In this document: piece after piece, positions 7,181-62,269 of the stretch
Position numbering within the stretch: position 1 is the first letter of the stretch
Layout: each line of letters starts with the position of its first letter
Origin: Anadara kagoshimensis
Lineage: Eukaryota > Mollusca > Bivalvia > Arcoida > Arcidae
Direction: 5' to 3'
Length of the DNA: 64,000 nucleotides
Assembly: GCA_021292105.1 (NCBI GenBank)
Contig: CM037874.1
Span: 24,850,583 to 24,914,582, forward strand
Notes under the pieces: model-generated
Seen by the model: only the letters and a program-made list of their open reading frames with translations
What the model was told of the DNA's origin: nothing
The model's database searches: none
Position numbers and translations under genes: made by a program

Positions 7181-7620
7181 TACTCCATTTCCTTATTTTA
7201 TCCTTTGATATATGTTTTCCCGGAAAACTACTTTCTGAATGGAACAGATTTACATTTAAAAATCTATTTGGGTACTAAGCTTCTTTCATGTAGGAAACTC
7301 TTTTATATTTCTATCCTTACTGCTTTTAAAAATACAAGTTGTACATGGAATTAGATTTGTCTTTTAAGATCATTTCAAAGACAATGTGTCAGATTAAAGG
7401 TTATCGACTTAAAATAAAAGATATATCATATCCCTAAACGTCAGCGATTTCGTGTTGTGATGTGTTCTATTGTTATTATGAAGCAGCAAAATTATATGTT
7501 GTTGATTTCAAAAGTAGAGCATCTTGATTCAGTGTTTTTGATTAAACTTGATTGTGTGAAATTGATTACTTGATAAACAGAAACTGATTAATTTGTTTCT
7601 ATGAAGAATGTATGATCATG

Positions 7621-7918
7621 CAGTGGCGGATCCAAGATTCTATGTGGGGGGAGGGAGGGGGCACACTGACAAACGTTCGCTCGAGACACATTCTAACATA
7701 AGTTTGCCAGTGGCTACAAGATGAATCAAACGCTCGCTCGAGATGTATTATAAATAAGTTGTGACGGAGATCCATTCTTATAATCGGTGCTGGTTTATTT
7801 TATATTTTAGAAACAAAAATGCATTTATGGTCTGGTAAAATATTTCTTATTATGATTACCCGGAAATTTTAGGGGGGGGGGCACAGTCCGGGTGTGCCCC
7901 CGTCTGGATCCGCGCCTG
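7621..7918. mobile_element. hAT-type MITE
   Basis: The left end CAGTGGCGGATCCA and right end TGGATCCGCGCCTG form a TIR of a type common among hAT-derived MITEs. GC-rich blocks follow each end inwards. TCATG abuts both ends, shorter than the usual 8-bp hAT duplication. No coding capacity. Confidence 0.55.
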
Positions 7919-8149
7919 TCATGAAAATGGTGGTGTTCAAATTTCATGGTGTTGTGATTTTATGAAAATATTGTATGGAGAGAAATAATTGGAAAAAATT
8001 TCCTAGAATAGTGTTTTCTGTAAATAAACTACTTAAAACAATCAAATTTCGTGGTATTCATTAACACGCGAAAAAAGTGAAATTTAAACCCCCACGGGTA
8101 CTTGCGATTTAACAGTGGCTTGATTATGGAAACTGTTTAGGTTGATCCA

Positions 8150-8725
8150 GGGAAATTTATCTTGAATTTGTGAAACTGATTCTATTGATTCTGTGAAACT
8201 GATTTACTTGATTCCTATATTATGTGAAACTGATCAACTTAATTATGTTAAATTGATAAGCTGAAATCTATGAAAACATAATAAAATTATCGATTGATAA
8301 TTAAAAAAATACATAATTTAGTTGCGATAATGTGCGCCGTAATCACATTTAATCCCATAAAATGCATTATGTATACATAATGCGAATTATGTATTTAATG
8401 TGGCTGAGGCATTCCATAGAAATCTGTGAATCTGATGAACTTTATTCTGTGAAATTGATTAACTTTATTCTGTGAAACGAAACTGATTAACTTTATTCTG
8501 TGAAACGAAACTGAATAACTTTATTCTGTGAAACTGATTGATTTAATTCTGTGAAACTGATTGATTTAATTCTTGTGAAACTGATTGATTTAATTCTGTG
8601 AAACTGATTGATTTAATTCTGTGAAACTGATTAACTGAACTATGTGAAATTGGTAAACTTTAAAATGTGAAAATGATTAATTTGAAAATGTAAAAATGAT
8701 TACTTTGATTCTGTGAAACCGTTGG
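8150..8725. repeat. Degenerate minisatellite, about 20-24 bp unit
   Basis: Many imperfect copies of a unit built on TCTGTGAAACTGATT. The most regular tract is 8430-8640. A further block at about 8750-8860 repeats a GAAATAACGCC-like motif. No coding role is evident. Confidence 0.7.
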
Positions 8726-9565
8726 TTAAATTGGTTAACTTGCGTGTTTACTAGGTGAAATAACGCCACACGAAACGACGAAACAAATTCCGGGCGAAAC
8801 AACGCCACGCGGATAGACGAAAAGGTGAAATAACGCCGCACGAAATAACGTCAACGCGATAAAAACAAAGTGACGGGAATAAGGTGGTGTAAAGTCAATA
8901 TTATAGCTATAAACACGATAGCAACCTGTTGGATATTCAAAACACATCTTTTATACAACAGTCACGAGAACCCCGTTGACTGCTTGGATTGAAATTTGTT
9001 GTTTTGTTTTTCACAAAAACATGTAACAGCTATATTCGTGGCCCTTGTGAAGGTTAAACCATTAGTTATTAACAGATCACCAGTTATATGGAGATTAATA
9101 CATATGATATTACATATTTGATAACAATTTTACAAGTCTATTATACCAGCTACGTTATTACCATACTTATCATGATCTGACGGTGGATCTTAACGATATT
9201 ATAGATCATGTGTAATGCCATTAGTATAAAAGTACATATAGAAGCTTCTAAAAGAGATTCTGAAAATTGTTTGATGTGAAATAACTATAGTAGCAATGTC
9301 AACCAAATGGCTTATAATGTCCTGTTTGATTGGAAGTGTTCATCTAGTTGGTCACTGTGGAATCTAATTCAGCGAGTATCTAGGGATTCCATGGCCTTTT
9401 GGTCATGTATTGCTTCGACGTGTTCTTCTTGTCTTTTAAAGGGTCCTTCAGAAGAGACCTTAAAATGTCACGGCAAACGCGATACCTTAAAGAACACTCT
9501 GCACATTGTCCTGAGCGCACTGCAAACAGAGATAATGTCAAAATTTCTCCTCTTCACCAATAGCT

Positions 9566-28413: not shown

Positions 28414-29637
28414 ATGGCGACCGAAGCACCAATCAGAAAGCTGAACTCATTACCAATGATATATGTGAGAGGTACACATTATGAAGTCGGATATCAAATC
28501 GGATCAACGTTCAAAGAAAGAATTCATGGATTCTTCCAAACTTCGGATCGTGTGCAGAAATACCTTATGTCATTCTTAGATTCGAAAGAGGGAAGTGAAG
28601 TCTATAAGTCATATCTGGATGTAACGAAGAGAGAGTTCCCATATTATATTAAAGAAATCGAGGGTATTGCCGATGGTGCAGAGATGCCTTTTGAACATAT
28701 TTTCCTTTACAATATATCAAAAGAAATATACAATGTGCATTATCGTAAAATAACCTTGTCCGAAAATAATGATAACAGCAACAATTGGTCTTGTGAATCT
28801 AGTAAAACTGACCCTAACCAAAAGCCTTTGGCCACTAATGACCAAGATGATTCGGGGTGTACAACTGTGTTTTTGAACAGACCAAACTGCAAAATCATGG
28901 CCCATAATGAAGATTCAGATCCCGCCATTTTGCATTTCTCGTACATCGTCTGCGCGGACATCACTGATCCGGACTTTGACGATCGCCATGAATGTTTCAC
29001 GGCATTTTCTTATCCGGGTGCTTTACCAGGCCATGCGTTTGGTTTCAATGACAAAGGCAGTGTTTTTGGGATGAACGGGCTTTATGGGAAGAATGCCTTT
29101 GTTGGGAAAGCTCCAAGATATTTCTTAAACCGTGTTTTACTCTCTTGTGAAACAATTGAGGATGTGCTAAAGGTTTTGAGAAATCCAAAGTATGGTTCTG
29201 CATATTGCTTCTGTCTAAATTATGCAAATTTAAAGCAAAATGACATGTGGTCGATTGAAATGGCTTCAGGGGAAGAAGGACGACTGTTCGTACACAAAAT
29301 ACCGGAACAGACGGACATGGATAAACCCGCTCACTTCGTCCATGCCAACCACTACAAAATAGCAGACGACAATGCAGTTGAGTGTCTACAATCACAAAGT
29401 ACTCTTGAAAGAACAAAACGAGCTGAAAAAATGAAAGCTCCTGAAAATCTCGAGGAGTTGAAGAATATTCTTGGCGATACACAGAATAAAGAATTTCCTA
29501 TCTATAGGATCAAAAGCGCAACCGACAAGAACGCAACTGTGTCTACCGCCATCTTTGATCTAACGAACCGGACAATGGAGATTTATATTGATAATGTTAA
29601 ATATCATGCCAAACCTTTATTAACTCTGCCATTGTAG
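28414..29637 (+). CDS. Peptidase C45 / acyl-CoA:6-APA acyltransferase-like hydrolase, intact
   Basis: 407 residues in one exon. The fold is that of the Ntn-hydrolase family that includes fungal isopenicillin-N acyltransferase and insect Tan (beta-alanyl-dopamine / carcinine hydrolase). Such enzymes are made as a precursor that cuts itself before a Gly-Cys; the new N-terminal Cys is the nucleophile. Here DDSGCTTVF places it at Cys149. AHNEDSDP (163-170) matches the conserved Asn/Asp block of the family, and GHAFGFNDKGSVFGMNGL follows. The N-terminal RGTHYEVGYQIG (about 19-30) is also typical. No signal peptide, so probably cytosolic. Likely reaction: hydrolysis of an amide such as a beta-alanyl amine; the substrate cannot be read from sequence. 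This is the only unbroken copy in the window. Confidence 0.85.
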   Translation: MATEAPIRKLNSLPMIYVRGTHYEVGYQIGSTFKERIHGFFQTSDRVQKYLMSFLDSKEGSEVYKSYLDVTKREFPYYIKEIEGIADGAEMPFEHIFLYNISKEIYNVHYRKITLSENNDNSNNWSCESSKTDPNQKPLATNDQDDSGCTTVFLNRPNCKIMAHNEDSDPAILHFSYIVCADITDPDFDDRHECFTAFSYPGALPGHAFGFNDKGSVFGMNGLYGKNAFVGKAPRYFLNRVLLSCETIEDVLKVLRNPKYGSAYCFCLNYANLKQNDMWSIEMASGEEGRLFVHKIPEQTDMDKPAHFVHANHYKIADDNAVECLQSQSTLERTKRAEKMKAPENLEELKNILGDTQNKEFPIYRIKSATDKNATVSTAIFDLTNRTMEIYIDNVKYHAKPLLTLPL

Positions 29638-36777: not shown

Positions 36778-38634
36778 GTGCCAAATTCGTGGAAAAAAGG
36801 AATAATAATTCCAATTTTTAAAGGAGGTAATAAAGATAAAACCTCACCCGACAGCTACAGACCCGTATCGCTACTACCAACGATAGAAAAAGTCTTTGAA
36901 AAACTGCTAGTGACTAGGATTGACAATAATATCACCGTAACAGGTACAACGCTTAGCCCTCAGCAGCAAGGATTTCAACGGGGATTGAGCTGTATAACCA
37001 CCTCCTTCAATCTCCATGAAACCATTTACCACAATGTTGAATTAGGTAGTAAAGTCTATGTAGCCTTTCTAGACACCAAAAAGGCTTTTGATACGGTGTG
37101 GAGAAAGGGACTTATGATAAAACTAAATAAAGTGGGAATTAAGGGTAAACTGTGGAGATTGGTTGATGATCTCCACATAAATACAGTAAGTGCGGTTATC
37201 ATAAATAGTGTCAAGTCTAAATGGTTTCCAACATATCAAGGTGTCAAACAAGGTGGTGTACTATCCACATTTCTATATCTGGTATTCATAGATGATTTAC
37301 TGAGGTTGCTAGAAAACAATCCTTGCGGGGCCTGTGTTGGTAATTTAAATAGCAGCTGCCCATCTTTTGCTGACGATATAGCATGTATAAGTATTTCACC
37401 TAATGGTCTGCAAACCATGTTGGATATAGCACATAGTTACGCTACAAAATGGCGTTATATTTATAATGTTAGTAAATCCAATATCCTTGTGTTTGGATCC
37501 TCTAAATGTTCATATGACAAAATAAAGTTTCAGTGGAAGCTTGGGAATGATCCACTTCCTATAGCTACACAATGTACTCATCTTGGTATCGAACTCAATG
37601 CTTTTAATCGACCCAACCAACGTACCAGAGAAAGGTGTAATAGAGGACGGAAGTCGTACTTTGCTATAGCTGGAATGGACAATAGTGACTTGAATCCTAT
37701 AGTTTTAACTGACTTATACCGGAAAATTGTGTTACCGACTGTTTGTTATGGATGTGAAGTATGGTCTGATATTAAAGAAAGTGACTATAACATTTTAAAT
37801 ACGTTCCAGCACTTTGTTGCTAAACACATTCAAAACTTCCCACAAAGAACCCGGTCAGATATATCTGAAAGTATGCTTGGACTATCCCGTATTCAAACTG
37901 AAATAGAAAAAAGGAAGCTATTCTTCTTACAAAAGCTCTGTGATTTAAATGGAGAAACACTGACTAAAAAAATATTTATATATCGATTGTACACATATTG
38001 CACCGAACCACGACTAACTCAATTTGGATTCATTCCTGATATTATAGAAATTCTCTTAAAATATCAGCTGCACCAGTACCTCCATGGATTTATGATCACG
38101 CAGCATTTCCCCGACAAGAGGGCATGGAAGGCAACAGTCAATAAAACAATAGCTTAACATGAAGCTACTAAATGGAGAGACAGGTTATCACAGAGTCCGG
38201 ACTTTATACGTTTCGCCGAATTGCATCACAAAATTGCGTATGCTTCTATATGGTCATTACCATCTACAAGGAGCCAGTTAAGACTTGTCCGATATATTGC
38301 CAAATTATGGGCACTACCTACTTGCTTAGTCAATAATACTTGTTCTTTGTGTGGCAACATTTACACAGACTTATACGTCCATATAGCATGCTGTTGTGTT
38401 CTTTTAAGTGATCTGCGCAACAGTTTTTGAAACGATATTACAGATGTGTTCGGTGTCTCTCTTAACGCAGAAATCAATAACATCAGCGATGAAAAACTGT
38501 ACCAAACTCTCTTAGGCAACACACAATGGATAACCACCGAAATAGACCACAAGTGTTTTATGTTTCACAGCTTTATCTATATACAAGCTGTATCTGCAGA
38601 ATACTACAGACAGTTACAAGTTGACTCAGCATAA
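36778..38634 (+). pseudogene. Jockey-like LINE reverse transcriptase, 5'-truncated, unit 1
   Basis: A non-LTR retrotransposon ORF2 that begins inside the RT domain (PNSWKKGIIIPIFKGG). RT motifs: SYRPVSLLPTIEKVFEK (26-42), catalytic AFLDTKKAFDTVW (about 96-108), GVKQGGVLS, and FADDI (197-201). A thumb and C-terminal region with Cys residues follows (CSLCGNIYTDLYVHIACC, zinc-knuckle-like). There is no endonuclease domain, so this is a typical 5'-truncated insertion. Two in-frame stops, TAA at 38155 and TGA at 38428, break it; the sister copy has sense codons at both sites. The 3' end has AATAAAGT followed by a short GAATGAAT tail at 38837-38860. Confidence 0.8.
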
Positions 38635-39698
38635 TAACATTCAGAGGGTCCAAACACAAGTTTAGCCCCAAACTAGACTGTCCTAACTATATATAGTATA
38701 TATATATATATATATATGTATTACCTACTTTATATTGCATGTGTTTAATTAAGTTTACACACGTTTAAATATTTTTTTATTTATTTATTTGTAACATATA
38801 ATTAATAATTATTTGTTAAAAATCTCTTATAGAGGAAATAAAGTTTGAATGAATGAATATATATAAATATATATATATATATATAATTATATATATCCCC
38901 AAATATAGGGTACTCTTGAAATCCGGATTTCGTACATTTCGTTTTCCTAGTAATTTATTAACATCATGGAGTGACTTCCGACAGCACGTTACGGACCGAT
39001 TAGCCTCTGTAATGTTTTATTTCTTCTTTGAAAACTAATAGTAAGATTACCCCCGCTGAATCTATTTATATCATAATGTATAGACAATATGACTTCACAT
39101 TTCTTAATAGGACAACTCAACTCCTAATTAAAACATGCTACATTTGAAATCAGAACTTTTGCCGACCAGCCACACGATGTCGTGGTGTGTGTTGGTTTAT
39201 ATATGTATATGTGTGCATGTACACATGTATATGTGCATGCATTCATACTTTTGTATGTTTTGTCTTTTGGTATGGTGGTACACATGTATATACTTTTGTG
39301 TAAATATATCTATGTGTATTTACACACATGTTGCTTAATCTGTGTATATTAATGTATATATACTTTATATTATATCTTTAAAATTATGTATTTGTCTACA
39401 TTTGTACTTGCAGGCATATATATGTATATGTGCATACTTATATACATGTAGGCATTTTTTTATTTTTTTTTTTTTTTTTTTGGAGGGGGGGAGGAGAATG
39501 TGTATGTATATATTCTAAGGTTTTTATGGAGTATACTTTAGGGTATATACATGAATGTATATTTATATATCCCTGTGTTAATATTTTTGTATGTATGACA
39601 GGTGTAGGGATGTACATACATGTATATTTAGGTTAAATTTTTATTATTCTTTCCAGCCAGTGCTTTTTTTTGTTTTTGTAAGCAAGAAATAATCAGTA
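38635..39698. other. LINE 3' tail and simple-repeat-rich DNA
   Basis: Contains (TA)n at 38690-38720 and 38857-38895, a unique block at 38896-39010 (which holds the empty site of the helicase element in unit 2), and a TATG/CATA-rich tract at 39195-39620 with a T18 run at 39463-39480. No gene is seen. Confidence 0.5.
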
Positions 39699-40323: not shown

Positions 40324-42930
40324 ATGGAAGCACATAACAATATCACAATACTTACTTCCAACTGTAGAGGTCTAAAGGATTATGAAAAACGTAGGGATGT
40401 GTTGAACTTCCTAAGGTCAAAATCATATAACATATACTGTTTACAAGAAACTCATTTGGTAGACAATTTACATTGGGTAATAAGATCAGAATGGGGTGGA
40501 GAAATTATTTTAAATTCAGTTACATCAAACTCAAGAGGGGTAGGCATTTTGTTTAATAATAATTTTGAGTATAATATACACCAAATTAAAAAAGATAATA
40601 ATGGGAATTATATAGCAGTTGACCTGACTATTGAAAAGATGAGAGTAACATTGATAAATATATATGCTCCAAATGAGGATAACCCACAATTTTTTTCAAA
40701 TATAGCAAAAATTCTCCAAGATTTTGAAAATGAATATTGCATCATAAATGGTGATTTTAATTTAGTTCAGAATCAAGAACTGGATACCTTTGGTTACCTC
40801 CATTACAATAATCCAAAAGCAAGCGATGTCGTAATAAATATGAAAGATGAATTGAATCTCATAGACCCTTTTAGAGAACTATATCCAGATGATAGAAAAT
40901 ATACTTGGCGAAAAAAACACCCATTAAAACAAAGTAGACTTGATTTTTTCCTTGTGTCAGAAAATTTTTTGACCAAGGTTGTAGATGTCAAACCAATCCT
41001 AGTTATAGGTCTGACCATTCTTCTGTTTGTTTATCATTAAAACTAAATGAATTTGTTAAAGATAGAGGCCTCTGGAAATTCAACAATTCCCTACTAACAG
41101 ATAAAAACTATACTGATATAGTAAAAAAGTGTATTAAAGATGTAAAAATACAATATGTAGTGCCTGTTTATAACATAGAAAAAAATTAATGAAATAAGCA
41201 ATGATGATATTCAATTTACCATTACAGATCAACAGTTTTTTGGAAACTGCTTTGCTTGAAATTAGGGGAAAAACCATATCATACTCCTCTTATCGTAAAA
41301 AAATGTCCATCCAAAAAGAGAAACAGATAATTGATGAAATTACTAGACTAGAAAGTAACTGTTTTTCTAACATTAATGAAATTAATAATAAAAAGAAAGA
41401 TTTAGAGGAATTAAGAAAAGAAAAAATGAAAGGGTCTCTGTTAAGGTCTAAAGCAAGGTGGGTAGAGGAAGGTGAAAAACCAAAGTATTTTTGTAGTTTA
41501 GAATCCAGAAATTTTGTTAGTAAAATAATCCCGAAAGTTGTAAAAGATGATAACTCTATAATTACTGATCAAAAGGAAATCCTAGCAGAAACTAAACAAT
41601 ATTACTTCAATCTTTATAATAGAGATAATGAGGAGTATTATATGGATCTCAAGAGTAAACTTAAAGATATTAAAGACATAAGTATTTTAACTGAAGAAAA
41701 AAAAGCATAGTTTGGAGGGAGAATTAACAAACACAGAAATTCATACTTTTTTACGAAAAATGAAAAATTTGAAAAGTCCTGGATCAGATGGTTTCATGTT
41801 TTACATCTGAATTTTTTAAATTTTTTTATAACAACTTAGTAAGCTTTTTAAGACGTTCGCTAAATGAAGGATTTCATACTGGAAAATTGTCAATTACACA
41901 AAGTCAGGGTATTATAACTTGTTTACCAAAAGGGGACAAACCAAAGCAGTTTCTAAAAAACTGGCGACCAATATCATTGTTGAATGTTGTATATAAAATA
42001 GCATCTGGCTGCATAGCTGAAATATTGAAAAAGGTATTACCGTTTATTATTTCAGAAGATCAGACAGGATTTATCAGTGGCAGATATATTGGTAAAAACA
42101 CTAGACTAATTTATGACTTAATGCAATATACAGAGGAAAAAAATATACCAGGGCTACTTTTAATGATTGATTTTGAAAAGGCATTTGATTCAGTGTCCTG
42201 GGATTATATTGATAAAGTGCTTGATTTTTTCAATTTTGGTGAATCTTTTATAAAATGGATTAAAATATTTCGACAAGAGATTATGTCAGCAGTCCTACAA
42301 AATGGAATTGTTTCTGGATTTTTTAGTATAACAAGAGGGTGTCGACAAGGGGACCCTATTTCACCCTACATATTCTTAATGTGTGCTGAAATTCTGTCTG
42401 TTCTTCTGAAAAATAATAAAAATATCAAAGGTATTAAAATTGGTGATGAAGAATTTAAACTGTCACTTTTTGCAGATGACACTACTGTCATACTGGATGG
42501 AGCAGAGTCATCATTACAAGAAACTTTACATGTCTTAGATGACTTTGCCTTGCTTTCCGGTTTAAAAATTAATAATAATAAAACAAGAGCAGTGTGGATT
42601 GGATGTAATAAATATAATGGCGAAACCTTTAATCATCGTTTTAAATTAGATTGGAACCAAGGTCCATTCACATTGCTTGGAATAAATTTTTCTGTTGATT
42701 TGGACAGAATGATAAAAATAAATTATGATATTAAAATACAAGAAATAGAAAAAAGCTTAAAACAGTGGTCAAAAAGAATTTTAACTCCTTTAGGTAGAAT
42801 AACCATTTTGAAAACACTGATAATTTCTAAACTAAACCATTTATTTATTGCTATTCCAAATCCACAACTGGAAATAATAACAAAACTGAATAAAATGTTT
42901 TTTAACTTTATTTGGCAACATAAAAAATTG
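40324..42930 (+). pseudogene. L1/Tx1-like LINE ORF2, unit 1, truncated and frameshifted
   Basis: Starts at an ATG with an AP-type endonuclease (TSNCRGLKDYEKRRD; CLQETHL; NGDFN; SRLDFFLVS), then a linker, then RT: NWRPISLLNVVYKIASG, MIDFEKAFDSVSW, RGCRQGDPISPY and FADDTTVI. The target-recognition SDHS motif survives only out of frame. Frame breaks lie near 40995 (one base lost relative to unit 2), 41185 (A run), 41700 and 41795. The ORF is cut off at 42930, where the duplication junction begins, so the C terminus and 3' UTR are absent. No ORF1 is visible upstream. Clade by motif style. Confidence 0.8.
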
Positions 42931-43443
42931 GTAGAGTGCTATGCTATGGTGAACCATAAATTTCAAACCGGTAGGAGTGACAGTTGTAAGTTAATAGGCA
43001 TTTTTCTTTTTCTTAATGGTGGCTCAGTAGTGGAGTGTCAGTTTCGAGAGCGGGAGGTCGTGGGTTAGAACTCGCGTTATTTGATGACAGCTAGAGTATC
43101 AACTGGTTCACCCCATGTCAGTATATGGCGGATTGAATGCTTGTCTGCAGCGTCCTTTTTCTGTGAGCTAGCTACTACTTAAAGCTGTCCCGATCGAGGT
43201 ACAGCCAACCATGCAGTTGTCTCGTTAATAATTGAAGCTAGTCCACTTGTATACAATATAATTTATGTCGTTTCACATATATGCATTTGTCAATGTATTA
43301 GTTTTGTTACTTCATGGAATTCTACGGAGCCCGCGAAGGGACATTGAAATAAATATATGTTTGCGTTTGCACGCAATATTTCGTTTCCACGCAATAGTAT
43401 TCCCTTCGCAGAATTCTCATTTCTTCTAGAGATTATGCTTAGC

Positions 43444-43887: not shown

Positions 43888-45125
43888 ATGGCGACCGAAG
43901 CATCAATCAGAAAGCTGAACTCATTACCAATGATATATGTGAGAGGTACACATTATGAAGTCGGATATCAGATCGGGTCAACGTTCAAAGAAAGAATTCA
44001 TGGATTCTTCCAAACTTCGGATCGTGTGCAGAAATACCTTATGTCATTCTTAGATTCGAAAGAGGGAAGTGAAGTCTATAAGTCATATCTGGATGTAACG
44101 AAGAGAGAGTTCCCATATTATATTAAAGAAATCGAGGGTATTGCCGATGGTGCAGAGATGCCTTTTGAACATATTTTTCTTTACAACATATCAAAGGAAA
44201 TATACAACGTACATTATCGTAAAATAACCTTGTCTGAAAATAATGATAACAGCAACACTTGGTCTTGTGAATCTAGTAAAACTGATGCTAAACAAAGACA
44301 TTCGGCCACCAATGACCAAGATGATTCGGGGTGTACAACTGTGTTTTTGAACAGACCAAACTGTAAAATCATGGCCCATAATGAAGATTCAGATCCCGCC
44401 ATTTTGCATTTCTCGTACATCGTCTGCGCGGACATCACTGATCCGGACTTTGACGATCGCCATGAATGTTTACGGCTTTTTCTTATCCGGGTGCTTTACC
44501 AGGCCATGCGTTTGGTTTCAATGACAAAGGCAGTGTTTTTGGAATTAACGGGATTTATGGAAAGAATGCCTTTATTGGGAAAGCTCCAAGATATTTCCTA
44601 AACCGCGTGTTACTCTCTTGTGAAACAATTGAAGATGTGCTAAAGGTTTTGAAAAACCCAAATTATGGTTCTGCATATTGCTTCTGTCTGAATTATGCAA
44701 ATTTAAAGCAAAATGACATGTGGTCGATTGAAATGGCTCCAGGGGAAGAAGGTCGACTTTTCGTACACAAAATACCGGAACAGACGGATATGGATAAACC
44801 CGCCCATTACGTCTACGCCAACCACTACAAAATAGCAGACGACAATGCAGTTGAATGTCTACAATCACAAAGTACTCTCGAAAGAACAAAACGAGCTGAA
44901 GAAATGAAAGCTCCTGAAAATCTCGAAGAGTTGAAGAATATTCTTGGCGATACACAAAATGAAGAATTTCCTATTTACAGGGTTAGAAGTGCAACCGACA
45001 AGAACGCAACCGTGTCTACCGCAATCTTTGATCTAACGAACCGGACAATGGAAATTTATATTGATAATGTTAAATACCATGCCAAACCTTTGGTAACTCT
45101 GCCATTGTATCTAGCCACGAACTGA
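43888..45125 (+). pseudogene. C45 acyltransferase-like gene, copy 2, frameshifted
   Basis: The first 190 or so residues match the intact copy closely, including RGTHYEVGYQIG and the DDSGCTTVF nucleophile site. At 44466-44472 the intact TGTTTCACGG has become TGTTTACGG; the lost base shifts the frame and the product would stop at 44601 (237 codons). The correct frame resumes to 45125. The original stop TAG is TAT here, adding a few residues before TGA. Copy 3 carries the same missing base, so the lesion predates the last duplication. If translated, the product would keep the N terminus and the Cys but lose most of the catalytic fold. Confidence 0.85.
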
Positions 45126-52320: not shown

Positions 52321-54168
52321 TGCCAAATTCGTGGAAAAAAGGAATAATAATTCCAATTTTTAAAGGAGGTAATAAAGATAAAACCTCACCCGACAGCTAC
52401 AGACCCGTATCGCTACTACCAACGATAGAAAAGTCTTTGAAAAACTGCTAGTGACTAGGATTGACAATAATATCACCGTAACAGGTACAACGCTTAGCCC
52501 TCAGCAGCAAGGATTTCAACGGGGATTGAGCTGTATAACCACCTCCTTCAATCTCCATGAAACCATTTACCACAATGTTGAATTAGGTAGTAAAGTCTAT
52601 GTAGCCTTTCTAGACACCAAAAAGGCTTTTGATACGGTGTGGAGAAAGGGACTTATGATAAAACTAAATAAAGTGGGAATTAAGGGTAAACTGTGGAGAT
52701 TGGTTGATGATCTCCACATAAATACAGTAAGTGCGGTTATCATAAATAGTGTCAAGTCTAAATGGTTTCCAACATATCAAGGTGTCAAACAAGGTGGTGT
52801 ACTATCCACATTTCTATATCTGGTATTCATAGATGATTTACTGAGGTTGCTAGAAAACAATCCCTGCGGGGCCTGTGTTGGTAATTCAAATAGCAACTGC
52901 CCATCTTTTGCTGACGATATAGCATGTATAAGTATTTCACCTAATGGTCTGCAAACCATGTTGGATATAGCACATAGTTACGCTACAAAATGGCGTTATA
53001 TTTATAATGTTAGTAAATCCAATATCCTTGTGACTCTAAATGTTCATATGACAAAATAAAGTTTCAGTGGAAGCTTGGGAATGATCCACTTCCTATAGCT
53101 ACACAATGTACTCATCTTGGTATCGAACTCAATACTTTTAATCGACCCAACCAACGTACCAGAGAAAGGTGTAATAGAGGACGGAAGTCGTACTTTGCTA
53201 TAGCTGGAATGGACAATAGTGACTTGAATCCTATAGTTTTAACTGACTTATACCGGAAAATTGTGTTACCGACTGTTTGTTATGGATATGAAGTATGGTC
53301 TGATATTAAAGAAAGTGACTATAACATTTTAAATACGTTCCAGCACTTTGTTGCTAAACACATTCAAAACTTCCCACAAAGAACCCGGTCAGATATATCT
53401 GAAAGTATGCTTGGACTATCCCGTATTCAAACTGAAATAGAAAAAAGGAAGCTATTCTTCTTACAAAAGCTCTGTGATTTAAATGGAGAAACACTGACTA
53501 AAAAAATATTTATATATCGATTGTACACATATTGCACCGAACCACGACTAACTCAATTTGGATTCATTCCTGATATTATAGAAATTCTCTTAAAATATCA
53601 GCTGCACCAGTACCTCCGTGGATTTATGATCACGCAGCATTTCCCCGACAAGAGGGCATGGAAGGCAACAGTCAATAAAACAATAGCTGAACATGAAGCT
53701 ACTAAATGGAGAGACAGGTTATCACAGAGTCCGGACTTTATACGTTTCGCCGAATTGCATCACAAAATTGCGTATGCTTCTATATGGTCATTACCATCTA
53801 CAAGTAGCCAGTTAAGACTTGTCCGATATATTGCCAAATTATGGGCACTACCTACTTGCTTAGTTAATAATACTTGTTCTTTGTGTGGCAACATTTACAC
53901 AGACTTATACGTCCATATAGCATGCTGTTGTGTTCTTTTAAGTGATCTGCGCAACAGTTTTTGGAACGATATTACAGATGTGTTTGGTGTCTCTCTTAAC
54001 GCAGAAATCAATAACATCAGCGATGAAAAACTGTACCAAACTCTCTTAGGCAACACACAATGGATGACCACCGAAATAGACCACAAGTGTTTTATGTTTC
54101 ACAGCTTTATCTATATACAAGCTGTATCTGCAGAATACTACAGACAGTTACAAGTTGACTCAGCATAG
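52321..54168 (+). pseudogene. Jockey-like LINE reverse transcriptase, unit 2
   Basis: Near-identical to 36778-38634. One A is lost near 52432 and 7 bp are missing near 53032, splitting it into three frames (52321-, 52451-53059, 53209-54168). It has GAA and TGG where unit 1 has stops, so the lesions in the two copies are independent. FADD and AFLDTKKAFDTVW are intact. 3' tail with AATAAAGT near 54380 followed by (TA)n. Confidence 0.8.
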
Positions 54169-54431: not shown

Positions 54432-54544
54432 CAAATATAGGGTACTCTTGAAATCCGGATTTCGTACATTTCGTTTTCCTAGTAATTTATTAACATCATG
54501 GAGTGACTTCCGACAGCACGTTACGGACCGATTAGCCCCTGTAA

Positions 54545-54845
54545 CACAGGCATTTGTTTCTATGAATGAAAAAAAAATCGAGAAATTACTATATAATAAC
54601 ACAAGGTGGTCATCTCTTTTTCAGGAGAATTACCACCAGTCCGCTTCAAACTGATTATTTCCATTTTTGCACGATAAAAATTCAAACAAACCTGGTACCG
54701 TTCGATTCAAAACACTTTTATCTTTACGGTAATACACATTTTTGTATCCCTCGATAACCCCTCGCTTGAATAATTGACATATTTCTCAGCTATTCCAACG
54801 ACTACGACAAATATCACACTTCCACTATATTCACTTCCGGTCCGC
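54545..54845 (+). repeat. Left terminal inverted repeat (301 bp)
   Basis: Exact reverse complement of 58048-58348 as far as read by eye, including an A9 run. A 63-codon frame in each TIR is identical, a by-product of the symmetry and probably not a gene. Confidence 0.85.
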
Positions 54846-54940
54846 TGCGCAGGGAATATGATGACCATATTTGATTGGTCGGTGAATAAATAGAATCACA
54901 AATCGAAAGTAGAAATTGTAAAACAGGTAAAACGACAAGA

Positions 54941-56744
54941 ATGCAAGACGATATTGTTCAAAAGGCGGTAAATGGCCATTCCTTGTTAATTTAGGCCAGA
55001 GTGGCACTGGAAAGAGTTTTGTTTGTAAAGAAATTGCCCGTAAACTTAAAGAAAAGTGTATAAATGTAAGGCTTACAGCCACTACAGGGATAGCATCCCT
55101 TAATATAGGGGGACAAACTGTTCATTCGTGGTGTGGTATTGGCGATGGTAGATATTCGAACGAAAATTTACTGGACAAAATTTCTAACAATGAACATTTT
55201 TTAATATATAAGAACAATATTTTAACAACAGACTGCTTAATCATTGATGAAATTTCTATGTTGTCAAAACGCTTATTCGAACAATTAGAATATATTTGCA
55301 GGAAAACAAGAAAAAGTGAGAAAATATTTGGGGGAATTCAGGTACTGGGGGTTGGTGATTTTTTTCAGTTAGCCCCAGTTCCTGACATCCTAAAGGATGA
55401 CCCAGGAGAATATTGTTTTGTCTCGGATATTTTTAAAACCTATTTTATTCATAAATTTGTATTAACTGATGTCATGCGTCAAAATCAGCCAGACTTTATT
55501 AAGGCTGTGAATGATGTGTCGAGAGGAAATTTACCTGATGACACTCTTAATTTAATTAAGCGCTTGAGTCGTCCTTTACCACCTGGCGAGGAACCTATCC
55601 ATCTATGTGCACGGAATTTTGATTGTTTTATTTTTAATGCTTGTAAATTAATGGAAATTGAAGGTGATGACCATGTGTTTCATTCAGTTGACGAGGGTGA
55701 TACAAACAAACTTGAGAGAATGCCTGTTCCTAAAACACTGCACCTTAAGATTGGCTGTTCTATTCTACTGCTAAAAAATTTATCTGACAAACTTGTCAAT
55801 GGGTTAAGAGGTACTGTGGTGAAAATTGACAAAACTAATAAAACTGTTGGTGTAAACTTCCAAAATAAAAACTTTGAAAGTACTTTATACACAGAGTTGA
55901 GAAAGGAAACATTTACTGTCTTCAGTACCACTGACAATAAAGTTGTAGCAACACGTAGACAATTGCCTCTGTGTTTGGCATTTGCCATTACAATCCATAA
56001 GTCTCAGGGGTTGACATTAAGTAGGTTAGAAGTTGATGCCAGTTGCATATTTGCAGCTGGTCAGTTTGGCGTGGCAATAGGTCGGGCAACAGAAAAAAAG
56101 GGTCTACGTATAATGGGCTTTAATCCATCTTGTGTCATAAAACACGAGAAAATTTTATATGACTTTTATGATGACTGTGTAAAGTGCCATAAGAATTTTT
56201 TTCAAGACACAACTTGTTGCAAAATTGACTTTGTTCCCAGTCAGACTGAAGAGAAAGCACATCCTGCAATTTCAATCTTTGAGGAGGGGGAGGAATTATC
56301 TGATTTTAGTGACACAGAAATTGAAGAAATTGATTTTTTGATGAGTAGTGATTCTGATGTTCTTGATCCAGAGGAACAGGTTCATAAAGTCATTAACATG
56401 AATGAAATCTGTAGTATTTTTCTGGAGAGAAAGTTTCGCCAAGAGAAAAACTGGTAAGTTCTTATTTTAAATCATTAACTGAAAACAGAATCAATACTGT
56501 GGAAACTTTTTCAAATAAACTTTTTCACAAATTCAGTGATATTTTTCAAGCAACATGTGGAAATGTTAAAACAGTGTCAACAGATTCAAAGATATGGACA
56601 GCATTCTGTACAGAACTATACAACTTTTCTGTATCTGCAGAATACACTGCTCTTGTTCACTTGATATCTGATGGTGAGCCCTCAGATATCTATTATGAAA
56701 TCTGTAGTAACATTTTTGATAAAGTGATTTTAGAGACCCATTAA
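54941..56744 (+). CDS. Pif1-like SF1 DNA helicase in the TIR element
   Basis: ATP-dependent 5'-to-3' DNA helicase family. In order: an N terminus (MQDDIVQKAVNGHSLLI) from the ATG at 54941, motif I GQSGTGKS (about 54991), TATTGIASLNIGG, motif II CLIIDEISML, motif III GVGDFFQLAPV, LPLCLAFAITIHKSQGLTL, and motif VI GVAIGRATEKKGL. The tail is acidic (EEGEELSDFSDTEIEE), then about 95 more residues. Two single-base frame breaks: near 54990 a T appears lost, and near 56450 an A appears lost. Both are in homopolymers. If these are errors, one frame of about 601 codons fills 54941-56744; as given, the unbroken core is 54931-56457. It starts 95 bp inside the left TIR. Possible roles: replication or repair of the element, or a captured host gene. 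Confidence 0.8.
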
Positions 56745-56898
56745 AAAATTAGTTATTTGTTGATTTCAATTGGGGATCACTAAATTTTTTTTCACAGAAT
56801 TCTGAATATGAAACTTTGACCACTAAAATGAAATTGTTACGACGTAAACGTTTAGCTACATAAGTACAGATATCTGCATTTGACTTTATTTAATCAAT
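56745..56898. other. Helicase 3' flank
   Basis: AT-rich; includes one TACAGATATCTGCATT palindrome of the kind arrayed at 57165-57310. The 12-bp TATTTAATCAAT at 56887-56898 is the left target duplication of the SINE that follows. Confidence 0.5.
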
Positions 56899-57142
56899 TA
56901 GGCCGCAGTGGCCGAGTGGTTAGGCAGGGCGCCAACAATCATGTGGTCTCTCAGCAATGAGGTCGCAGGTTCGAATCCGCACAGCGCGGCCTTATCTGAG
57001 AAAGGGTTTGTTCAGTTCCCTTACCGCAGGTCGGTGGTTCTACCTGGCGTCTCCTCGTGAAACCAGGGTCTTCCTCCACCATGGAAAACTGGACGCCTCG
57101 TATAAGTGAAATATTCTTGAGTAGGCGTAAAACACCTTACCC
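56899..57142 (+). repeat. tRNA-derived SINE (RUDI/V-SINE-like), nested
   Basis: The tRNA-Leu/Ser-like head has TGGCCGAGTGGTTAGGC (box A) and GGTTCGAATCC (box B). The body has GGTGGTTCTACCTGGCG and the tail ATAAGTGAAATATTCTTGAG then GTAAAACACC. Exact 12-bp repeats TATTTAATCAAT flank it (56887-56898, 57143-57154). The SINE jumped into the helicase element. Confidence 0.75.
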
Positions 57143-57164
57143 TATTTAATCAATGCATAAACAT

Positions 57165-57310
57165 GAAATATAGATATCTCTATTTCAAATACAGAAATCT
57201 ATATTTGAATTAGAGATATCTGTATTAAAGCATTAATTTTTGGAAAATGTAGATATCTGTATTTGAAAGAGATATCTTTATTTGAAATAAAGATATCTGT
57301 ATTTAAATGT
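57165..57310. repeat. GATATC palindromic repeats
   Basis: About seven copies of AGATATCT/TAGATATC-like palindromes separated by TATTTGAAAT-type spacers. They lie inside the helicase element, between the SINE and the right TIR; another copy is at 56867-56876. They could be protein-binding iterons or just a simple repeat. Confidence 0.6.
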
Positions 57311-58047
57311 AGATAACTCCATTTTTTGAATAAAAACCCATTTGGTCTGCCATAGAATTGCATATCAACTAAATATATATTGACAATCAAAAATTTCTCG
57401 ATAATTTTTTTTATTCATGAAACAAGTGCCTGTGAGAAATATGCACTCTCATGAACATATAGAACATAATAAACTTTGAACATTTTTTTTTTAATCTTTT
57501 TTTTTTTACTGCATAAATGTTGTGCCAGTCCATAAATCTGATCCCCCCCCCCCCCCCCCGTACAAATGTAGGTACCGTCATTTTTTTTTAACTCTATGCT
57601 GCATTCTCCATGTTTACAGAAACACAAATTTGACTAGGTACTAGTACCATAGAAAGCCTCATTTGGTACTATCTCCTTTATATATTTCCCCAAAACGTCA
57701 ATATAATTGGCTGTATTACAAATTGAGAGTTCTCTCATTATACTTACCAAAAAGTAATTGCAAAATTATTTCTGCATTCACTCATTTTGAAAAGTATCAA
57801 AATTGTCCGTTTTAAATTTCCCACCAAATGTCAATTTGATTTCATCGGGAGTTATCGTTCTTATTTGGAAACCCTCTTGACTTGTCATGGCGTACATGTT
57901 GAGAACATAAATATAGTCAAAATAATAAAACACAGATTTTAAATTAAGATATGTATTATTTTGTTTGTGTAAAAATATAAATGTTAAAACTGTTATACGT
58001 TTATATTTTTAAACAACTCATTTTATTTACTCAAAATAATATTAACT
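57311..58047. other. Right non-coding part of the helicase element
   Basis: No gene. Contains T9 runs and a C16 run at 57544-57559. Confidence 0.5.
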
Positions 58048-58348
58048 GCGGACCGGAAGTGAATATAGTGGAAGTGTGATATTTGTCGTAGTCGTTGGAA
58101 TAGCTGAGAAATATGTCAATTATTCAAGCGAGGGGTTATCGAGGGATACAAAAATGTGTATTACCGTAAAGATAAAAGTGTTTTGAATCGAACGGTACCA
58201 GGTTTGTTTGAATTTTTATCGTGCAAAAATGGAAATAATCAGTTTGAAGCGGACTGGTGGTAATTCTCCTGAAAAAGAGATGACCACCTTGTGTTATTAT
58301 ATAGTAATTTCTCGATTTTTTTTTCATTCATAGAAACAAATGCCTGTG
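58048..58348 (-). repeat. Right terminal inverted repeat (301 bp)
   Basis: Reverse complement of 54545-54845. The outer end TGCCTGTG abuts the 8-bp CCCTGTAA repeat at 58349-58356. Confidence 0.85.
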
Positions 58349-58356
58349 CCCTGTAA

Positions 58357-59673: not shown

Positions 59674-62269
59674 ATGGAAGCACATAACAATATCACAATA
59701 CTTACTTCCAACTGTAGAGGTCTAAAGGATTATGAAAAAGGTAGGGATGTGTTGAACTTCCTAAGGTCAAAATCATATAATATATACTGTTTACAAGAAA
59801 CTCATTTGGTAGACAATTTACATTGGGTAATAAGATCAGAATGGGGTGGAGAACTTATTTTAAATTCAGTTACATCAAACTCAAGAGGGGTAGGCATTTT
59901 GTTTAATAATAATTTTGAGTATAATATACACCAAATTAAAAAAGATAATAATGGGAATTATATAGCAGTTGACCTGACTATTGAAAAGATGAGAGTAACA
60001 TTGATAAATATATATGCTCCAAATGAGGATAACCCACAATTTTTTTCAAATATAGCAAAAATTCTCCAAGATTTTGAAAATGAATATTGCATCATAAATG
60101 GTGATTTTAATTTAGTTCAGAATCAAGAACTGGATACCTTTGGTTACCTCCATTACAATAATCCAAAAGCAAGAGATGTCGTAATAAATATGAAAGATGA
60201 ATTTAATCTCATAGACCCTTTTAGAGAACTATATCCAGATGATAGAAAATATACTTGGCGAAAAAAACACCCATTAAAACAAAGTAGACTTGATTTTTTC
60301 CTTGTGTCAGAAAATTTTTTGCCCAAGGTTGTAGATGTCAAAATCAATCCTAGTTATAGGTCTGACCATTCTTCTGTTTGTTTATCATTAAAACTAAATG
60401 AATTTGTTAAAGATAGAGGCCTCTGGAAATTCAACAATTCCCTACTAACAGATAAAAACTATACTGATATAGTAAAAAAGTGTATTAAAGATGTAAAAAT
60501 ACAATATGTAGTGCCTGTTTATAACATAGAAAAAATTAATGAAATAAGCAATGATGATATTCAATTTACCATTACAGATCAACAGTTTTTGGAAACTGCT
60601 TTGCTTGAAATTAGGGGAAAAACCGTATCATACTCCTCTTATCGTAAAAAAATGTCCATCCAAAAAGAGAAACAGATAATTGATGAAATTACTAGACTAG
60701 AAAGTAACTGTTTTTCTAACATTAATGAAATTAATAATAAAAAGAAAGATTTAGAGGAATTAAGAAAAGAAAAAATGAAAGGGTCTCTGTTAAGGTCTAA
60801 AGCAAGGTGGGTAGAGGAATGTGAAAAACCAACAAAGTATTTTTGAAGTTTAGAATCCAGAAATTTTGTTAGTAAAATAATCCCGAAAGTTGTAAAGATG
60901 ATAACTCTATAATTACTGATCAAAAGGAAATCCTAGCAGAAACTAAACAATATTACTTCAATCTTTATAATAGAGATAATGAGGAGTATGATATGGATCT
61001 CAAGAGTAAACTTAAAGATATTAAAGACATAAGTATTTTAACTGAAGAACAAAAGCATAGTTTGGAGGGAGAATTAACAAACACAGAAATTCATACTTTT
61101 TTACGAAAAATGAAAAATTTGAAAAGTCCTGGATCAGATGGTTTTACATCTGAATTTTTTAAATTTTATAACGACTTAGTAAGCTTTTTAAGACGTTCGC
61201 TAAATGAAGGATTTCATACTGGAAAATTGTCAATTACACAACGTCAGGGTATTATAACTTGTTTACCAAAAGGGGACAAACCAAAGCAGTTTCTAAAAAA
61301 CTGGCGACCAATATCATTGTTGAATGTTGTATATAAAATAGCATCTGGCTGCATAGCTGAAAGATTGAAAAAGGTATTACCGTTATTATTTCAGAAGATC
61401 AGACAGGATTTATCAGTGGCAGATATATTGGTGAAAACACTAGACTAATTTATGACTTATGCAATATACAGAGGAAAAAAATATACCAGGGCTACTTTTA
61501 ATGATTGATTTTGAAAAGGCATTTGATTCAGTGTCCTGGGATTATATTGATAAAGTGCTTGATTTTTTTCAATTTTGATGAATCTTTTATAAAATGGATT
61601 AAAATATTTCGACAAGATATTATGTCAGCAGTCCTACAAAATGGAATTGTTTCTGAATTTTTTAGTATAACAAGAGGGTGTCAACAAGGGGACCATATTT
61701 CACCCTACATATTCTTAATGTGTGCTGAAATTCTGTCTGTTCTTCTGAAAAATAATAAAAATATCAAAGGTATTAAAATTGGTGATGAAGAATTTAAACT
61801 GTCACTTTTTGCAGATGACACTACTGTCATACTGGATGGAGCAGAGTCATCATTACAAGAAACTTTACATGTCTTAGATGACTTTGCCTTGCTTTCCGGT
61901 TTAAAAATTAATAATAATAAAACAAGAGCAGTGTGGATTGGATGTAATAAATATAATGGCGAAACCTTTAATCATCGTTTTAAATTAGATTGGAACCAAG
62001 GTCCATTCACATTGCTTGGAATAAATTTTTCTGTTGATTTGGACAGAATGATAAAAATAAATTATGATATTAAAATACAAGAAATAGAAAAAAGCTTAAA
62101 ACAGTGGTCAAAAAGAATTTTAACTCCTTTAGGTAGAATAACCATTTTGAAAACACTGATAATTTCTAAACTAAACCATTTATTTATTGCTATTCCAAAT
62201 CACAACTGGAAATAATAACAAAACTGAATAAAATGTTTTTTAACTTTATTTGGCAACATAAAAAATTGG
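59674..62269 (+). pseudogene. L1/Tx1-like LINE ORF2, unit 2, truncated and frameshifted
   Basis: Near-identical to 40324-42930. Here the endonuclease and linker form one open frame of 390 codons (59674-60846), with NGDFN, SRLDFFLVS and the SDHS motif in frame. A TGA at 60844 (TGT in unit 1) and several single-base homopolymer changes (near 60893, 61384, 61460, 61566, 62200) break the rest. The RT motifs NWRPISLLNVVYK and FADDTTVI remain. The motif RGCRQGDPIS reads RGCQQGDHIS. Cut off at the same junction as unit 1. Confidence 0.8.

Follow-up and report, generated by a model that had tools for sequence, protein, structure and literature searches.

We describe here a mobile element in the genome of the bivalve Anadara kagoshimensis, found in a stretch of 64,000 nucleotides (the window) that corresponds to positions 24,850,583 to 24,914,582 of the forward strand of contig CM037874.1 in assembly GCA_021292105.1. 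The element occupies window positions 54545-58348 (3804 bp), and it is very probably a recent, non-autonomous copy, shortened by internal deletion, of an 8.9-kb P-superfamily transposon, mobilized in trans by a transposase encoded elsewhere; this degree of confidence covers what the element is and its movement in trans, and does not extend to the role of the helicase that its full-length relatives encode. Those relatives carry two convergent genes, one for a P-type transposase and one for a Pif1-family helicase that ends in a PHD finger, and the helicase is a resident gene of the element, with constraint on both genes. The pairing of a P-type transposase with a resident Pif1 helicase appears, provisionally, to be new, and we found no report of a Pif1 gene in a P element in the literature searched, which was available in part and with Repbase outside the search.

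The ends of the window element and its gene assignment are those set out in the original prediction, which was made from the letters of the window. Self-comparison and genome matches define a left terminal inverted repeat (TIR) of 301 bp at 54545-54845 on the + strand, beginning CACAGGC, and a right one of 301 bp at 58048-58348 on the - strand that is 100% complementary to it. An 8-bp target-site duplication, CCCTGTAA, can be read directly at 54537-54544 and is repeated exactly at 58349-58356. The prediction had also proposed an empty site in the sister unit of a duplication that includes the insertion, and alignment of the joined flanks (with one duplication removed) finds an uninterrupted counterpart there, CTCTGTAA at about 39005-39012, with one mismatch in 120 bp; the site is therefore empty in the sister unit. 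Because of this, and because the flanking duplication units are ~97% identical to each other, the insertion is younger than the duplication. The interior matches the Pif1 helicase family, as proposed, with PF05970 (E 9.5e-31) and Pif1_2B_dom (E 1.1e-8).

The window copy is best understood by comparison with L027, a full-length copy used as the reference. It consists of full-length positions 1-2185 joined to 7283-8906 without a single substitution, the junction lying at window position 56727, and the ~5.1 kb that is gone held the remainder of the helicase gene, the PHD finger, and the entire transposase gene. This deletion alone makes the copy non-autonomous. The helicase had been thought nearly full length, but the intact protein has 1032 residues and a PHD finger, and the coding part in the window (54941-56727, + strand) stops near residue 596. 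The ATG of the gene, at 54941, does stand 95 bp away from the TIR as predicted, but a one-base difference at 54989 puts it in a different frame from the rest of the helicase; a second one-base frame break occurs at 56416, and both breaks lie inside T runs. The first ATG in the window helicase frame is at 55258, downstream of two helicase motifs that we take to be Walker A and Walker B. All differences from L027 other than the deletion are length changes in six homopolymer runs, and the frame breaks in the helicase may be assembly errors. Homopolymer changes of this kind are typical of consensus error and could be raised in favor of the entire insertion being an assembly artefact, although this is scarcely credible given the perfect 8-bp duplication, the empty sister site, and the many copies elsewhere with other duplications.

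The longer relatives that the prediction had suggested looking for, with a transposase between the same TIRs, are present at 8.9 kb in the same genome (a 1.115-Gb assembly in 36 contigs), where the helicase again occupies the corresponding position. L027 measures 8906 bp from end to end. Its helicase gene starts 95 bp inside the left end and encodes 1032 residues with, in order, a Pif1 domain, a Pif1 2B domain, a long part without a Pfam match over cut-off, and the C-terminal PHD finger; PF05970 and PF21530 are over cut-off in the window, in L027, and in L044, a diverged relative considered below. The transposase open reading frame (ORF), convergent to the helicase, has 762 residues in L027 and lies in a 790-residue frame in L024, another full-length copy, whose helicase frame has a break separating the PHD finger from the helicase portion. 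Genome searches with each protein, in which the best 61 of 311 helicase candidates and the best 59 of 123 transposase candidates were scored and the query's own locus was counted, returned at least 14 matches identical (100%) to the 737-residue helicase query over residues 1-732 or more, nine of them in 1049-residue open frames, and at least 15 full-length transposase matches at 100% in 790-residue frames. Nor is this a helicase-only family, since the 8.9-kb relatives have a P-type transposase gene within the same pair of TIRs. Scans of viral contigs with both proteins, and of a genome-contig collection with the transposase, returned no relatives; a 17-mer of the end matched three viral contigs, with no wider similarity, and we attribute this to chance.

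The end repeat is far from unique to the window, as it might have been, and copies of the element are numerous. The best 40 of 136 candidates were scored with the 301-bp end as query, and all 40 match at 100% over 301 bases; this is a lower bound, and the window's own two ends are outside those 40. At least five pairs of ends are ~8.9 kb apart and other pairs are separated by ~1.7-3.6 kb. Among the 20 genome stretches examined for copies, seven were known first by one end (L037-L043), and their partner ends are 99.0-99.7% identical. An exact 8-bp duplication is present in 15 of the 17 copies tested with both ends, with 15 different 8-mers, and L033 and L038 are without matching 8 bp. This count omits the reference L027, which is also flanked by an 8-bp duplication, L035, which is a tandem copy of the L034 locus, and L036, which has one end in its stretch; L034, one of the 15, is part of a tandem array. 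Four other 8.9-kb copies are 99.8-99.9% identical to L027, and with the matching ends, these near-identical copies, and the empty site, the family looks recently active. We also note that at G000:C5:48829286-48862624 a 1.9-kb deleted element occurs six times at a spacing of ~6.3 kb, which represents a tandem duplication carrying the transposon.

The family's transposase domains, together with the duplication length and the deletion behavior, lead us to place the transposase in the P superfamily, probably in a lineage without a detected THAP domain. The TNP-like_RNaseH_N domain, with a cut-off of 24.6 bits, scores 51.9 bits in a second, diverged family (family 2, the window element belonging to family 1) and 33.4 bits in an 802-residue protein on contig C16, both over the cut-off, and TNP-like_GBD reaches 26.3 bits in family 2 against a cut-off of 24.8, with the domains in the right order. 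The family-1 transposase is 42-48% identical to the family-2 and C16 transposases, and D379, E380, D480, and E724 are invariant across the three aligned proteins. By position, D379, D480, and E724 would be the catalytic residues, judging by where the fly transposase has its three acidic residues (PMC7776569). Duplications of 8 bp are also found at the family-4 element L048 and at two of three family-2 sites, consistent with the 7-8 bp used as a test for the P superfamily. Several observations count against the placement, namely that the family-1 transposase itself is under both cut-offs (23.0 against 24.6 and 16.1 against 24.8), that the C16 protein has no GBD match at E<=1, and that no solved P transposase was matched by phmmer or by a three-sequence profile, the single row of the profile search (E 0.5) being unrelated. 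Likewise no THAP C2CH pattern was found in L024, L027, or family 2 when searched in one frame, which a domain split between exons would escape, and the domain may not be universal in the superfamily. We give no weight to a likeness between end-repeat positions 51-67 and a putative terminus sequence of the fly P element, as no published source for that sequence was located, the likeness sits at a different distance from the end, and the family-2 ends are without it.

Other P-type sequences occur in the genome, including two conventional matches (L055 and L056). At G000:C3:45935199-45949769 there is a stronger P-type transposase match and a weak P-element C-terminal match with a diverged Pif1 helicase within 15 kb, and these may be nested elements. 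The 802-residue P-type transposase ORF on C16 is situated beside a ~1.6-kb self-complementary stretch (97%; L046:1-1605), with a decayed transposase copy inverted nearby.

The association of helicase and transposase is not confined to family 1. Family 2 (L044/L045, L047, and L049) has a convergent transposase and 538-bp ends (97.8% identical) that begin CACAGGC, and its helicase, open over 1004 residues in L044, retains the helicase motifs despite an overall identity of 34% to that of family 1. It is flanked by the duplication GTCTATAG around a pair of elements on C17 and by GTCCAGAT around the C18 copy, and the flanks of the C4 copy were checked without a duplication being found. The PHD finger is over cut-off in family 1 and under cut-off yet recognizable in family 2 (L047). 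Family 4 (L048 and L050) is decayed, and both genes are present, with a PHD-like tail seen by eye; in L048 the 309-bp ends (95.8% identical) begin CACAG on one side and CACAT on the other, and the duplication is CTTTTCTG. Two families besides family 1 therefore show the arrangement, with the two genes, long TIRs, duplications of 8 bp, and a tail that resembles a PHD finger.

This pairing far exceeds what random placement gives. From the genome matches listed we selected 21 helicase and 19 transposase diverged loci, setting aside fragments within family-1 copies and any further fragment of a locus already counted, and found a diverged transposase 3' of the helicase on the opposite strand within 10 kb at 10 of the 21 helicase loci, which pairs 10 of the 19 transposase loci. 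Random placement gave a mean of 0.003 pairs and a maximum of one in 2000 draws. When the strand condition was dropped, non-convergent neighbors within 20 kb occurred only between the two elements in tandem on C17. There is also evidence of constraint, with an excess of third-position changes in all eight comparisons, covering both genes, and w (the ratio of nonsynonymous to synonymous divergence) of 0.12-0.31 in the three for which the synonymous divergence (dS) could be estimated. Simulated neutral drift to 35% identity introduced 30-57 stops (50 runs), compared with none in the family-2 helicase ORF. Some findings temper this picture: 11 of the 21 diverged helicase loci and nine of the 19 diverged transposase loci are unpaired, and the ten pairs are not independent, those on C4, C17 (two), and C18 being family-2 copies and L048 and L050 looking like one family. 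In addition, the C16 transposase has no helicase within the 6 kb examined, and dS is saturated or nearly so. As a separate observation, the two family-2 elements at C17:12151587-12170498 (L051, L049, and L052) are in tandem with exactly 8 bp, CTATAGAC, between them; these 8 bp are the outer duplication GTCTATAG in reverse complement, an orientation that recombination between the neighboring inverted ends could have produced.

These findings bear on how the helicase came to be in the element. The original prediction had offered a non-autonomous long-TIR transposon with a captured helicase, and of this the mobility, the lack of autonomy, and the long TIRs stand, although the helicase is resident. 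That an ordinary long-TIR element picked up a host or Helitron helicase in a single event might be entertained since the genome has many other PIF1 matches, whose frames extend to about 2,600 residues and are probably Helitrons by their look, but the recurrence of the two-gene arrangement in three or more diverged families, counting family 1, contradicts this, and we regard it as very unlikely. The window helicase also scores 224 and 190 bits against the PDB PIF1 chains 7otj and 9fb8, whereas L057, which is Helitron-like by look and by its 2529-residue frame only, scores 124 and 79 bits against the same chains. Helitrons share a Pif1-type helicase with the element described here and differ from it in that the element has a 301-bp TIR and an 8-bp duplication, so that, as predicted, its architecture falls outside that class; to our knowledge, Helitrons have neither a TIR nor a target duplication. 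No Rep/HUH domain is among the Pfam matches listed for the ORFs of L024, L027, and L044 (the best 25 of 29 for L027).

What the helicase contributes is less clear, and several models merit consideration. P elements are classic cut-and-paste transposons that gain copies through host gap repair, and elsewhere the best known role of Pif1 is in strand-displacement synthesis, the helicase family being tied to long repair synthesis. In the element described here the P-type transposase, which is encoded on the right and reads leftward, would be the mover of these ends, cutting and pasting DNA that carries them and making the 8-bp duplications, and deleted copies without a transposase would depend on it in trans. 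Excision by cut-and-paste would leave a gap to be filled by copying a template, and the Pif1 motor encoded by the element could support the long strand-displacement synthesis that restores all 8.9 kb, leading to higher copy number; aborted synthesis would give internally deleted copies such as that in the window. We tentatively propose, as a possibility somewhat short of an even chance, a P-superfamily lineage in which a Pif1-PHD motor turns conservative cut-and-paste into copy-out repair by driving synthesis of the entire element, either break-induced or during gap repair.

Internal deletions that leave both ends in place are found in 13 of the 17 other copies compared, with break points individual to each. 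The 12 single-junction deletions, including that of the window, have a mean microhomology of 2.5 (2.25 by a stricter count) compared with 0.78 at random (P 5e-5); L032 and L043 have more than one junction and are omitted. Microhomology is compatible with other repair routes as well, and the retention of ends is partly selection because the copies were located through their ends.

A second model, which we consider doubtful but worth keeping in view, is that the resident helicase acts at the ends, unwinding or remodeling the transposase-DNA complex or disassembling it after insertion, with no role in recopying. In its favor, the nearest diverged transposase is convergent at all 10 paired helicase loci, and helicase and transposase diverge in the same order over L050, L048, and L044. 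The C-terminal region of the family-2 helicase also gives a very weak match to Tnp_P_element_C (E 0.088), although this is far under cut-off, a PDB search with the same region found nothing relevant, and a genome search with the Tnp_P_element_C family gave nothing over cut-off; we have accordingly dropped the idea that the helicase protein carries a P transposase C-terminal domain. The best known role of Pif1 elsewhere, in strand-displacement synthesis, also argues against action confined to the ends.

A third model, rather improbable in our estimation, sees the helicase-PHD protein as cargo, or as a factor for chromatin targeting or for escape from silencing, maintained for something other than the chemistry of transposition. 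The PHD finger in family 1, recognizable in families 2 and 4, fits such a role, as does the copy L030, from which the entire helicase is gone and which nonetheless has a perfect duplication at its insertion. L030 indicates that the helicase is not needed in cis but leaves room for a role in trans, and the helicase motifs kept at 34% overall identity argue for an active motor. A P-type lineage with its own Pif1 makes it possible to test directly if a transposon can itself provide a factor for long repair synthesis; native sequences are suitable for such assays, given the signs of recent activity, and the family offers a natural set of deletion products.

The relationship to other transposons can be considered further. 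The inverted ends of the P element begin with CA, as they do here. P element and THAP9-type transposons have 8-bp duplications, an RNase H transposase with a GTP-binding insertion, and many internally deleted, non-autonomous copies (PMC7776569); these families share the duplications, the RNase H domain, and the deleted copies, and the GTP-binding domain is over cut-off in family 2. They differ in that here there is a second gene, for the Pif1-PHD helicase, a length of 8.9 kb compared with 2.9 kb, ends of 301-538 bp compared with 31 bp, and no THAP domain found by pattern. Galileo is likewise a P-superfamily transposon with long TIRs (PMC2775673, PMC3688188, PMC4168063, PMC3573991) but has 7-bp duplications, and the helicase mentioned in one Galileo paper is a host gene and not the element's (PMC2775673). 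KolobokH and AcademH provide precedents for accessory helicase genes in DDE-type elements (PMC9587614, PMC10045372, PMC10799480); the first has a RecQ helicase and a transposase of another superfamily (PMC9587614), and the second has 9-10-bp duplications (PMC10045372) rather than 8 bp, again with a transposase of another superfamily. DEAD, Helicase_C, and PIF1 domains are named for AcademH, KolobokH, or Helitron jointly (PMC10799480). Zisupton/KDZ elements share the 8-bp duplications (PMC12730594), whereas the transposases here match P-type TNP domains and not KDZ; a weak match of the PHD part to CxC5, which is KDZ-associated (E 0.069), points the other way.

The right part of the window element has two further features. 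A tRNA-derived insertion resembling a short interspersed nuclear element (SINE), recognized by eye, lies on the + strand at 56902-57145, with approximate limits, and is also present in the full-length L024 around 7690-7940; it has no Rfam match at gathering cut-offs. At 57392-57434, on the - strand, self-comparison reveals a third version of the terminal 43 bp of the TIR, 88% identical, which is found in all five full-length copies read (L024-L028) and is closer to the family-4 end CACTTGTTTC than the present family-1 end is. The simplest reading is that this inner copy is a former right end, outside of which a copy of the left end was added later, and such an addition would explain the perfect 301-bp identity of the TIRs. 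The stretch between the likely former right end and the present right TIR (57435-58047, - strand) is present in L027 too.

Both sister units of the window also contain ORFs resembling the reverse transcriptases and endonucleases of retrotransposons without long terminal repeats (non-LTR), at 36778-38157, 40324-43068, 52451-54168, and 59674-62215. Duplicated genes in tandem units lie at 28414-29637 and 43888-45125, encoding a protein that begins MATEA(P/S)IRKLNSLPMIYVRGTHYEVGYQIG, and the second copy is split across two frames.

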